Part shown: one piece after another, positions 17,544 through 28,973 of the stretch | Layout of the letters: every line of letters begins with the position of its first letter | Numbering within the stretch: the first letter of the stretch is position 1 | Origin: Phycisphaerae bacterium | Lineage (GTDB): Bacteria > Planctomycetota > Phycisphaerae > Sedimentisphaerales > Anaerohalosphaeraceae | DNA length: 41,643 nucleotides | Direction of reading: 5' to 3' | Assembly: GCA_016782835.1 (NCBI GenBank) | Contig: JADHXS010000006.1 | Coordinates: 1-41,643, forward strand | Translations under genes and position numbers: made by a program | The notes under the pieces: model-generated | What the model was told of the DNA's origin: nothing | What the model saw: only the letters and a program-made list of their open reading frames with translations | Database searches by the model: none

Positions 17544-18548
17544 ATGATCCAACTGATTTTACAATTGTGTTTGATTGTTTTTTTGATTCTGCTTGGCGGC
17601 TTTTTCGCAGGGAACGAAACGGGTGTTTACCGCCTGAGCCGGTTTCGTCTGCGAATCGGGGTTGAACAGGACAAGTCCGCTTTTAAGCTATTGTTTTCCA
17701 TTCTGCGGGACGGTCAGGGTTTAATGCTTTCCCTGCTTCTGGGGAATAATCTGGCCAATTATTTCGTGACTTATTTCGTAACAGTACTCATTTTTACCAG
17801 CGTCAATGACCATCATTGGGCGGAAGTCTATGCGACGGCAATCCTGACCCCCGTTTTATTTGTTTTTGTCGATATCATTCCAAAAAATTTATACTATCAC
17901 AAGGCGGATACATTAATGCCGTCTCTGGTCTGGTTCAGTTGGTTTTTTTATCGCGTCTTTAGGCTTTCCGGTATGGTCGGAATTTTAAAGGGAATATCCA
18001 GAACGTTATCGTTTGTGCTCCGTCTTGATGTTGACACCGCCAAGGCGGTTGATGCGACCCAGCGGCATCAGGTTCATCAGATTATTCATGAAACGCAGGA
18101 GGAAGGTCTCCTGTCGGAATCGCAAAAAGATATGATGAACCGTCTAATCGATATTGGCGATGTTTCCGTTGCTTCGGTCATGATTAAACTAAAAGCCGTT
18201 GAGATGATTTCTATTGACTCGGGCTATTTGGCACTGGTGGAACATCTCAAAGAAAACACACATACCCGGCAGCTTGTTTATGAAAATGAAAGAAGCCGCA
18301 TCGTCGGATTTATTCGGATTTATGATGTACTCGAAAAGTATGACTCTCTCAATAATCTCAACGATGTGACCGTTGAGCTGACCGAGATCAATCGCAACAG
18401 TTCAGTTCTTGAAGCGATTAACCTGTTGCGTCATCAGCATGCGAAAATCGGGCTTGTCGTTGAACGATCTAAAGCATCCAAAAAAGCCGTCGGAATCATT
18501 ACCATTGCGGATCTGATTGAAGAATTGACCGGCGAATTAAATCCATAG
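17544..18548 (+). CDS. DUF21/CBS membrane protein lacking the CorC_HlyC domain
   Basis: A 334-residue paralogue of the preceding gene. The DUF21 helices cover residues about 1-165 with the motif FFAGNETGVYRLSR. A CBS pair follows (about 190-330, ending VGIITIADLIEELTG). The C-terminal CorC_HlyC domain is absent and the protein ends in ELNP. Two such genes in tandem suggest a two-subunit membrane complex. The stop is only two bases from the convergent dacB stop and no hairpin separates them. Confidence 0.9.
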   Translation: MIQLILQLCLIVFLILLGGFFAGNETGVYRLSRFRLRIGVEQDKSAFKLLFSILRDGQGLMLSLLLGNNLANYFVTYFVTVLIFTSVNDHHWAEVYATAILTPVLFVFVDIIPKNLYYHKADTLMPSLVWFSWFFYRVFRLSGMVGILKGISRTLSFVLRLDVDTAKAVDATQRHQVHQIIHETQEEGLLSESQKDMMNRLIDIGDVSVASVMIKLKAVEMISIDSGYLALVEHLKENTHTRQLVYENERSRIVGFIRIYDVLEKYDSLNNLNDVTVELTEINRNSSVLEAINLLRHQHAKIGLVVERSKASKKAVGIITIADLIEELTGELNP

Positions 18549-21407: not shown

Positions 21408-21436
21408 TTGACACCCGCCGAAATGACTGATATACT
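21408..21436 (+). promoter_or_regulatory. Near-consensus sigma70 promoter of the pyrKD leader
   Basis: A perfect -35 TTGACA is separated by 17 bases from -10 TATACT. The predicted start is at 21443-21444, giving a leader of about 120 bases before pyrK. This is the strongest promoter match in the window. Confidence 0.8.
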
Positions 21437-21453
21437 TTTGATGACGTGAGACA

Positions 21454-21561
21454 ATGGAATTTGAATCTATCGGCTTTCTTTGCCGTGGCGGGCTTCCGGG
21501 ATATCTGTGGATGAATGTTCCGGAAGCTTTTTTTGTAACGCTTTTTGAAAAAAGAACTTGA
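21454..21561 (+). CDS. Putative 35-codon leader ORF spanning the pyr attenuator
   Basis: An ATG about ten bases after the predicted start site opens a 35-codon frame. It begins MEFESIGFLCRGG and ends TLFEKRT, with a TGA two bases before the pyrK ATG. It runs through both arms of the terminator hairpin and its T tract. GTGAG four bases upstream could serve as a weak ribosome site. The peptide itself looks unimportant; a regulatory role through ribosome position is inferred by analogy with E. coli pyrL. Chance openness of a 35-codon frame cannot be excluded. Confidence 0.5.
   Translation: MEFESIGFLCRGGLPGYLWMNVPEAFFVTLFEKRT
21492..21534 (+). terminator. Leader terminator/attenuator before pyrK
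   Basis: GCTTCCGG (21492-21499) pairs with CCGGAAGC (21520-21527) over 8 bp with a 20-base loop. A run of seven T follows. A smaller CGGC/GCCG hairpin lies just upstream at about 21470-21484. Because this lies between a strong promoter and the pyrK start, it should act as an attenuator and not as the end of an upstream gene, since the upstream gene runs the other way. Confidence 0.7.
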
Positions 21562-21563
21562 AT

Positions 21564-22508
21564 ATGCAACACAAGGACGTCCAAAAAGGTGTTTTTCAGG
21601 CTGAAGTTCTCAGTAATCAACAAATTCGCCAGTGCTATTATCGGTTGAACCTTCTTTTTGATGCTCACGGCAGCCGTCTTTTTCAGCGAGTTATTCCCGG
21701 TCAGTTTTTGCAGTTAGACCTTAGCCCTGTTGCCTTGCCGGATATCAAACAAATCCCGGAGCATCTGAAAGATGCGGCTGTCAGAGGCGTAATGCTTCGC
21801 CGCCCTTTCAGTTTTTCTGATGTTGTTGTGACCCCTTCGACGGAGGGTCCTACTGTAAAAGTTGAAATCCTGTATTGTGTTCTTGGGCCTGCGACAGTTC
21901 GAATGATGAGCCTCAAAAAAGGAGACAGTGTGAGCGTTTTGGGCCCTCTGGGGAATGGATTTTCGATTTCTGAAAACCTTACTGATGCACTTTTAATCGC
22001 GGGCGGTATGGGGTCGCCGCCAATTCTGCATTTGGCGGGCTATTTAAAGCGTCATCATCCTGATGTGAATACCGTTTGTTTTGTGGGGGCTAAAAGTTGT
22101 GCCGATTTACCTTTTACCGTCAAGATCGGCAATTTCAAGGGATTGATTCTTGAAGAATTTGAATTAATCGGTGCGCCTTCCCATATTGCAACCGATGACG
22201 GCTCCGCAGGCTTCGATGGATATGTGACGGATTGTTTAAGGCACTGGCTTGAGAAAAATAGTGTTGATTCGGCCAAAACGACGATTTTTGCGTGCGGCCC
22301 GGAGGCGATGCTGGCCGGTACCGCAAGACTGGCACAGGATTTTTCACTCCCCTGCCAGGTCAGCATGGAACGAATGATGGCCTGCGGCATCGGATTATGC
22401 CAAAGCTGTGCCGTAGAAGTGAAGGAAACCAAAAATCAGACAGCGTATCAGTTGTGTTGTAAAAACGGGCCTGTATTTGATGCTAAAAAGGTAGTTTTTC
22501 GCATTTGA
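21564..22508 (+). CDS. pyrK: Dihydroorotate dehydrogenase B, electron-transfer subunit
   Basis: PyrK carries FAD and a [2Fe-2S] cluster and passes electrons from PyrD to NAD+ in pyrimidine synthesis. The 314-residue product has an FAD-binding barrel (LRRPFSFSD at about 80), an NAD-binding domain (LLIAGGMGSPPILHLA) and the C-terminal cluster motif CGIGLCQSC at residues 274-282, with a fourth Cys at 298 or 299. The ATG at 21564 is preferred; a TTG at 21558 would add two residues. It is followed by pyrD after three bases, as in class 1B systems. Confidence 0.95.
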   Translation: MQHKDVQKGVFQAEVLSNQQIRQCYYRLNLLFDAHGSRLFQRVIPGQFLQLDLSPVALPDIKQIPEHLKDAAVRGVMLRRPFSFSDVVVTPSTEGPTVKVEILYCVLGPATVRMMSLKKGDSVSVLGPLGNGFSISENLTDALLIAGGMGSPPILHLAGYLKRHHPDVNTVCFVGAKSCADLPFTVKIGNFKGLILEEFELIGAPSHIATDDGSAGFDGYVTDCLRHWLEKNSVDSAKTTIFACGPEAMLAGTARLAQDFSLPCQVSMERMMACGIGLCQSCAVEVKETKNQTAYQLCCKNGPVFDAKKVVFRI

Positions 22509-22511
22509 AAA

Positions 22512-23444
22512 ATGGAAAAGAATGCTAATTTACAAATAAATTTCGCGGGGCTGCCGCTTGCCAGTCCCGTAATGACTGCTTCCGGGACGTGTGGTTATGC
22601 CGACGAGTTGCTGGAGTTTATGAACTTGTCCAAAATCGGGGGAATTGTCACTAAAAGCATTTCTCTTGAGCCCAGAGCCGGTAATCCAACGCCTCGAATT
22701 GTGGAAACCAGTTCAGGAATGCTGAATGCGATTGGGCTTGCAAATATGGGGCTGGAGCGGTTTTTAGAGGAAAAAGTCCCGATTCTGGAGAAGCTGGATA
22801 CCAATATCTTTGTGAATCTTGCCGGACAAACGATTGATGAATACGTAACCGTTGCCAAGCGGCTTGCACAGGAAGAGGCGATTGACGGTTTTGAGCTGAA
22901 TATCAGTTGTCCCAATGTCAAAAAAGGCGGTATAACCTTCGGAACGGACCCCGTTTTGATTGGTGAGATTACCGCTGCCGTCAAAAAAGCTTGTTGCGGC
23001 AAACCCTTGATGGTCAAGCTGACGCCGGCCGTAACGGATATCAGTGTTACGGCCAGGGCCGCCATTGAAGCCGGAGCAGATGCCCTGAGCCTGGTCAATA
23101 CCTTTACGGCCATGGTGATTGACATTGATTCCCGCAAACCCGTTCTGGCTAATCGCACCGGCGGTCTGAGTGGGCCGGCGATAAAACCTATTGCGGTCTA
23201 TCTTGTCAACAAAGTCTATCATGAGGTCGCCAAAGACGCGAATATCCCGATTCTGGGGATGGGCGGAATTGTGACGGTTTCAGATGCTCTTGAATTTATC
23301 ATTGCCGGGGCTACTGCGGTGGCGATTGGAACCTCGACATTTGTGTATCCGGATACGGCCCAAAAAGTGGCACAGGGACTTGGAGAGTACTGTAAAAATA
23401 AAGGGATTTGTGATATTCGGGAATTGATTGGCAGCTTGCGTTAA
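22512..23444 (+). CDS. pyrD: Dihydroorotate dehydrogenase B, catalytic subunit
   Basis: A class 1B enzyme oxidising dihydroorotate to orotate with FMN. The 310-residue protein has the active-site Cys133 in ELNISCPNVKKGG, which marks class 1 (class 2 uses Ser). The FMN-binding segments MVKLTPAVTDI and GMGGIVTVSDALEFIIAGA and the early MTASGTCGYADE motif are also visible. Pairing with pyrK confirms the NAD-linked type. No other pyr gene is in the window. Confidence 0.96.
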   Translation: MEKNANLQINFAGLPLASPVMTASGTCGYADELLEFMNLSKIGGIVTKSISLEPRAGNPTPRIVETSSGMLNAIGLANMGLERFLEEKVPILEKLDTNIFVNLAGQTIDEYVTVAKRLAQEEAIDGFELNISCPNVKKGGITFGTDPVLIGEITAAVKKACCGKPLMVKLTPAVTDISVTARAAIEAGADALSLVNTFTAMVIDIDSRKPVLANRTGGLSGPAIKPIAVYLVNKVYHEVAKDANIPILGMGGIVTVSDALEFIIAGATAVAIGTSTFVYPDTAQKVAQGLGEYCKNKGICDIRELIGSLR

Positions 23445-27876: not shown

Positions 27877-28908
27877 ATGCCAAAAAAGACAGTGAAAGAA
27901 ATCGCCGACCATGTTGGCGCCGAAATTATCGGGGATGCATCCGTTGTGATTGAATCGGCCGCGACGCTGGACAGTGCCGGTCCCGGCCAGATCACTTTTT
28001 TGAGCAACCCGAAGTACACCCCGCGTGTTAAAACGACTCAAGCGGCAGCCGTTCTCGTTGCCCGGCAGGTTCAGACGAACGCCTGCCAGATTGTTACCGA
28101 AGACCCCTACTACGCGTTTATGCAGGCGGTTGTGCTGCTCCATGGACATCGTCAGCATCCGCAAACGGGCCTCAGTCAACAGGCCAATATTGCGGCCTCG
28201 GCCAGGCTTGGCAAAAATTGTAATATTCATGCGTTTGCTGTTGTCAGTGAAAATGCGGTCATCGGCGATAATTGCCAAATCTACTCCGGCGTTTTTGTCG
28301 GCCCGAATGTGACTATCGGAGACGACTGTGTCTTGTATCCGAATGCGGTGATTTATGACGGATGCCAAGTCGGCAATCGGGTCATTGTTCAATCGAATGC
28401 GTCCGTCGGTCAGGACGGTTACGGTTTTGCCACGCATAAAGGCGAACATCACAAAATTCCTCAGATCGGCATTGTTATCTTAGAGGACGATGTGGAAATC
28501 GGTTCCGGCTGTGTCGTCGAACGCGGGACGCTGGACAATACCGTTATCGGCAAGGGCAGCAAGATTGGTGATATGGTCGCCATCGGCCACGGCACGAAAA
28601 TCGGACCGCATTGTCTGCTGGTGCCGCAGGTCGGCGTGGCCGGTTCGGTCGAGATGGGGCATCACTGCGTGCTCGGCGGCCAGGCCGGGATTGTAGGGCA
28701 TCTTAAAATCGGGAATAGGGTCACTATCGGCGCACAAGCAGCGGTCATCAATAACGTGCCGGATGGCGCAACAATTTTGGGTGCCCCCGCCATTGACGCC
28801 AACAAAGCCAAACGTGCCTATGCTCTGATTGAAACGCTGCCCGAAATGCGGCAAAAATTACGCAAGCTGGAAAAAGAAATAAGCAAAAGCAGAACCGAAG
28901 GTTCGTAA
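27877..28908 (+). CDS. lpxD: UDP-3-O-acylglucosamine N-acyltransferase
   Basis: LpxD adds the second acyl chain in lipid A synthesis. The 343-residue protein has the N-terminal uridine-binding domain (ITFLSNPKYTP) and a left-handed beta-helix of hexapeptide repeats (about 105-290). The catalytic His238 in AIGHGTKIG aligns with His239 of the E. coli enzyme, and QDGYGFATHKGEHHKIPQIG is typical. A short coiled tail ends the protein. The last codons RTEGS-stop lie inside a hairpin of a dispersed repeat (28892-28973), so the native C-terminus may have been altered by it. Confidence 0.96.
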   Translation: MPKKTVKEIADHVGAEIIGDASVVIESAATLDSAGPGQITFLSNPKYTPRVKTTQAAAVLVARQVQTNACQIVTEDPYYAFMQAVVLLHGHRQHPQTGLSQQANIAASARLGKNCNIHAFAVVSENAVIGDNCQIYSGVFVGPNVTIGDDCVLYPNAVIYDGCQVGNRVIVQSNASVGQDGYGFATHKGEHHKIPQIGIVILEDDVEIGSGCVVERGTLDNTVIGKGSKIGDMVAIGHGTKIGPHCLLVPQVGVAGSVEMGHHCVLGGQAGIVGHLKIGNRVTIGAQAAVINNVPDGATILGAPAIDANKAKRAYALIETLPEMRQKLRKLEKEISKSRTEGS

Positions 28909-28973
28909 TATAATAGCCGGAGGTGAAACCTCCGGAAAGAATGCTTCTTCGCTTATGTTAGCCCCGAAGGGGC
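28892..28973 (+). repeat. Composite hairpin repeat, copy 1 (lpxD end to lpxI)
   Basis: Three perfect stems: GAACC-gaa-GGTTC (28892-28904), a 12-base A+T linker ending AATAG, CCGGAGGT-gaa-ACCTCCGG (28917-28935), then GCCCC-gaa-GGGGC (28961-28973). The first stem is within the lpxD reading frame and the third ends 14 bases before the preferred lpxI ATG. The order matches the copies at 29901 and 31581. Confidence 0.8.

Follow-up and report, generated by a model that had tools for sequence, protein, structure and literature searches.

A conserved promoter, hairpin and terminator unit upstream of pyrKD points to a structured small RNA of the Phycisphaerae

Features of the region upstream of pyrKD

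The window analysed here, a stretch of 41,643 nucleotides from a member of the Phycisphaerae (contig JADHXS010000006.1), carries pyrK and pyrD preceded by a compact arrangement of promoter, hairpins and terminator (Table 1), with divergent response regulators as the genes upstream of it. The TTGACA-17-TATACT promoter is the top promoter-like match between positions 18000 and 25000, and the RNA start was placed 7 nt past its -10 hexamer; here as throughout, transcript ends are predicted. From this start the RNA would run through a small hairpin (P1), a linker and a terminator hairpin (P2), the stem of which, taken together with the T7 tract, has a folding energy of about -21 kcal/mol. A preliminary description of this DNA had named the promoter, an 8-bp stem with T7 lying inside a 35-codon frame, and a smaller hairpin upstream; all of these are in place, the smaller hairpin being P1, and the frame does end with its TGA two bases before the pyrK ATG. 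Folded alone, the sequence is moderately unusual when compared with shuffles (z -1.5 to -1.7), and the case therefore rests on comparison across relatives. Elsewhere in the window, an Acido-Lenti-1 RNA (RF01687) lies at 28891-28935 on the minus strand, its 40 bits exceeding the gathering score of 37.

Table 1. Coordinates of the features in and around the element, as positions in the window.
Feature	Position	Strand	Remarks
Promoter of the small RNA, TTGACA-17-TATACT	21408..21436	+	11/12 consensus match
Small structured RNA, ~92 nt, predicted start to end of T-run (predicted ends)	21443..21534	+	covariance-model match 21464-21534
35-codon ATG frame, MEFESIGFLCRGGLPGYLWMNVPEAFFVTLFEKRT; not conserved, probably not a gene	21454..21561	+	no excess over dummy starts
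Hairpin P1: CGGC (21471-21474), loop TTTCTTT, GCCG (21482-21485)	21471..21485	+	97% of cells paired, 81 loci
Linker TGGCGG	21486..21491	+	TGGC nearly invariant across the class
Terminator hairpin P2: GCTTCCGG (21492-21499) / CCGGAAGC (21520-21527)	21492..21527	+	98% of cells paired, 81 loci
P2 loop octamer GTGGATGA	21507..21514	+	unchanged throughout families f1, f2, f3 and f6; other families have another sequence
T7 tract of the terminator	21528..21534	+	directly after the P2 stem
pyrK (dihydroorotate dehydrogenase B electron-transfer subunit)	21564..22508	+	Pfam DHODB_Fe-S_bind
pyrD (dihydroorotate dehydrogenase)	22512..23444	+	Pfam DHO_dh

Conservation of sequence and structure

For the comparison, pyrK loci were gathered from 98 related genomes and 39 contigs (Phycisphaerae/Planctomycetota metagenome assemblies), the genomes compared being mostly metagenome assemblies. 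In most relatives the region upstream of pyrK contains a near-invariant block that opens with TTGACA-17-TATACT and continues, after a short variable stretch, with CGGC-UUUCUUU-GCCG, UGGCGGG, CUUCCGGAAURUCNGUGGAUGAAUGUUCCGGAAG and a U-tract; the invariance of this core is inflated, since a model of the same core served to find the loci. An alignment of 28 leaders supports the two hairpins P1 and P2, and covariance models were built first from these leaders and then from 60. At the window site the match reaches 95.9 bits (E 1.1e-24), well beyond chance, under a model that includes the window sequence itself among its 28 leaders, and it is the sole match in the genome.

Pairing was further assessed over 81 loci. 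In this alignment, which was fitted to the modelled structure, 97.9% of the cells are paired, compared with at most 50.5% when the partners are slid along, and pairing is also supported over 60 loci. Two-sided changes occur in 83 cells as opposed to 22 in shuffles, and in P2 they affect seven pairs; at one locus (L117) the lower P2 stem bases have been swapped with compensation and the loop GUGGAUGA has been kept. P1 hardly varies, so that conservation, more than covariation, supports its pairing. Its loop measures 4-10 nt, or is widened to 17-40 nt in family f5, where a divergent form with extra hairpins is found: most of its members (L100-L109) have an additional 5' hairpin as well as a long apical hairpin inside P1. 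A promoter that agrees with the consensus at 10 or more of its 12 positions precedes the element in 74 of the 81 homologous loci; among 243 shuffled sequences, 10 reach this score. Between predicted start and P1 there are mostly 8-90 nt, and predicted RNA lengths run to about 76-174 nt across loci, with 92 nt in the window. Just past the T-run, GCGC(C) is often seen (L157, L154, L158, L184, L188 and others); it is complementary to GGCG(C) of the linker, and it may help to form a longer hairpin when transcription reads through, or be a common terminator tail.

The sequence of the P2 loop differs between families, as would be expected if the locus were a mere pair of promoter and terminator whose RNA is itself without function. 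However, P1 and the linker are conserved although a terminator needs neither, and the element is kept as a single copy per genome across the class, which makes such a reading barely credible.

The open reading frame is not conserved

The preliminary description had taken the 35-codon frame for the leader ORF of a pyrBI-like attenuator, in which low UTP would cause RNA polymerase to pause, allowing the ribosome on the leader ORF to close up and block the terminator. In favour of this, the window's ORF does span the terminator and the loop of P1 is rich in U. In the relatives, however, the hairpins are retained while the frame is lost, an outcome that the preliminary description had itself named as refuting. 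When the upstream regions of pyrK are aligned, the codon-level conservation proposed as a check is absent even within the genus of the window: the ATG is missing in several close relatives (L002, L005, L006, L011, L012), stands in a different frame in L008, and is found in the same frame in L003 and L004 alone, where the frame extends 49 nt into pyrK. Considering all three frames, we counted those that start before P2 and cross the terminator. Frames started by ATG were present in 35 of the 81 loci, spread as 13, 13 and 9 over the three frames, and they show no excess over frames from dummy starts (GAT 36, GTA 19, AGT 14). Moreover, the lengths of the P1 loop, including the widened loops of f5, are not multiples of three. 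We thus regard control of the pyrBI type as highly improbable; of the earlier interpretation as a pyrKD leader, the promoter, the intrinsic terminator and a conserved hairpin-based element before pyrKD hold, and the pyrL-type leader ORF does not. As a caution for similar cases, a conserved RNA can yield an open frame through its terminator for free.

Two further observations concern reading frames. A frame whose stop codon is the loop UGA (NGU GGA UGA) seemed conserved in the genus and was rejected, as some members have no start codon and changes in P1 loop length break it elsewhere. At several loci (among L110, L116 and L118-L123) the predicted RNA start nearly coincides with an ATG; the frames differ, with no overall excess over chance.

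Distribution across the Phycisphaerae

Searches with the 28-leader model found the element in 63 of the 161 genomes of the window's order, as one strong copy per genome adjoining pyrK. With the 60-locus model it was detected in 171 of 397 genomes sampled across the class, again as one strong copy each, and a phylum-wide draw of 392 genomes gave no match outside members of the class. Families f4 and f7 are without the element save for a few weak off-locus matches. No exact match to the core 19-mer was found in the viral contigs searched. At gathering thresholds, neither the window's copy nor the copies at 28 other loci match any Rfam family, pyr leaders and riboswitches included, and relaxed thresholds gave chance-level matches only; 6S RNA was considered and rejected, as the RF00013 matches lie elsewhere in the same genomes and represent a separate gene. 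The open-access literature searched holds no description of this element and almost nothing on small RNAs of the Phycisphaerae. The result is a compact and testable RNA family that has defined, albeit predicted, ends, occurs in many families of a single class and is missing from Rfam.

One proposal for a partner of the RNA is CsrA, which would be captured by a GGA in the apical loop of P2. Such a GGA is present in 8 of 17 families (f1, f2, f3, f6, f12, f13, f22 and f27), and the gene for CsrA was found in 50 of 59 relatives, the genome of the window included. Against this, the other 9 of the 17 families (f5, f9, f14-f16, f18, f19, f21 and f23) have no GGA in the loop, GGA is not enriched in the 5' part of the RNA (71 compared with 86 in shuffles), and families that lack the RNA (f4, f7) have CsrA nonetheless. 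The family as a whole does not carry the GGA in hairpin loops by which a CsrA-binding sRNA would be recognised; a CsrA-capturing function is improbable, and CsrA is a weak candidate for the partner.

Coupling to pyrK and its loss

In the window, and nearly always in its order, a pyrimidine gene in the same orientation directly follows the terminator. Outside the order, coordinate comparison in 97 element-bearing genomes placed pyrK directly downstream in 66; in 18 it is located elsewhere, one of these (G310) having the element beside pyrK but inverted; and in 13, some of which are incomplete assemblies, there is no pyrK ortholog at the threshold used. Where pyrK was found, coupling thus amounts to 66 of 84 genomes outside the order, and to nearly all cases inside it. 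Three genomes that carry the element without a recognisable pyrK (G203, G222 and G232) are 98-100% complete. According to a Pfam check, the next gene in uncoupled genomes encodes a DegT aminotransferase (f18), lysS (f12) or a HAD hydrolase (f16), and convergent next genes include those for a phosphate transporter, a thymidine kinase and an O-methyltransferase. Promoter, P1, linker and P2 are all intact in the uncoupled copies, and the pyrK loci of these genomes hold no second copy of the element, the sole match there being the single inverted copy of G310. The uncoupled genomes constitute a natural experiment that separates function in trans from function in cis.

The strong linkage to pyrK with short gaps, together with the overlap of the conserved block with the left arm of the terminator, would fit a cis-acting attenuator of pyrKD that operates without a leader peptide: a protein or ligand bound to P1, the linker and the P2 left arm could set termination versus read-through, in the manner of RAT/LicT, HutP, PyrR or a riboswitch. 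The preliminary description had likewise offered, as its alternative, a ligand or protein that acts on the upstream hairpin, which is possible. The situation in the genus of the window lends itself to this explanation. The gap between element and pyrK measures 30-40 nt there, and no pyrKD promoter is recognisable within it, either in the window's genome or in the genus; nor did we find a significant signal for a separate pyrK promoter in the class loci. An excess of a -10-like hexamer just 5' of the pyrK ATG is confined to a minority (8/32). Since no own promoter is visible and the genes upstream are divergent, pyrKD in the genome of the window is probably reached by read-through past the terminator, and gating of pyrKD in cis without a leader peptide is possible. 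On the other hand, the element remains intact in genomes that lack pyrK and where the next gene is convergent or is one of the DegT, lysS and HAD genes; and by eye we saw no upstream complement to the left arm of P2, hence no antiterminator helix. Family f2 speaks against it as well. Nine of its loci (L113, L115-L119, L121, L123 and L124) share a conserved TTGACA, spotted by eye, some 44 nt ahead of the pyrK start codon, together with an A/T-rich -10-like sequence about 8 nt before the same codon, which suggests a separate pyrK promoter in this family; the position of the -10-like sequence also suggests that pyrK transcripts from these loci are leaderless. On balance, a purely cis-acting attenuator seems unlikely.

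A probable small RNA gene with a proposed role beyond pyrK

Judged by sequence comparison, the conserved unit of promoter, RNA and terminator evolves as an RNA and survives without pyrK. Two features expected of a stand-alone sRNA are found here, namely its own promoter and intrinsic terminator, and conservation that is independent of the neighbouring genes. We consider it probable that the element is a discrete, structured small-RNA gene conserved across the Phycisphaerae, with a role independent of pyrK. The strong link to pyrK, such as a cis element would give, is a point against this reading.

For the proposed small-RNA gene, transcription would start near 21443 and normally end near 21534. 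The released transcript, about 92 nt long, would function as RNA, with a protein or a second RNA as its binding partner and with action in trans as the most likely mode. The putative contact parts are P1 and the exposed UGGCG linker, joined by the loop GUGGAUGA in families f1, f2, f3 and f6. In the genus of the window, where no separate pyrKD promoter is visible, read-through past the terminator would reach pyrKD, and the same RNA may gate these genes in cis. Taken further, this could amount to an RNA regulator found across the class that has two modes of action: pyrimidine synthesis would be gated in cis through premature termination, and the released sRNA would control other genes in trans. 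We advance such a double role tentatively; if true, it would explain why several lineages kept the RNA once it had been separated from pyrK.

Comparison with known regulatory RNAs

The attenuator of E. coli pyrBI, with its coupling through pyrL (PMC5021804), shares with the element, as it stands in the window, a promoter, a U-rich stretch and an intrinsic terminator before a pyrimidine operon, and an ORF that crosses the terminator. It differs in that neither the presence of the ORF nor its frame or sequence is conserved here, whereas the sequence and structure of the RNA are, and in that the element also occurs away from pyr genes. PyrR-binding leaders and the RAT/HutP antiterminators likewise have a conserved RNA block that overlaps the 5' arm of a terminator; to our knowledge, their known binding-loop consensus sequences are absent from the element. 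Like the stand-alone intergenic 6S RNA, the element is a single-copy and widely conserved unit with its own promoter, but it is much shorter and its structure is different.

Some leader-derived RNAs also act in trans, such as Listeria Rli51, which lies upstream of mpl, and rhizobial rnTrpL. As in these, early termination ahead of a gene would release a short RNA, and some transcription may continue into that gene, both being predictions in our case. There is no sequence relation known between them and the element, no antiterminator fold was seen in the latter, and the RNA described here persists without the downstream gene and across a whole class. Judged by analogy, the nearest functional parallels would nevertheless appear to be leader-derived RNAs of this kind, for example Rli51, which has effects in cis as well as in trans (PMC11394854).
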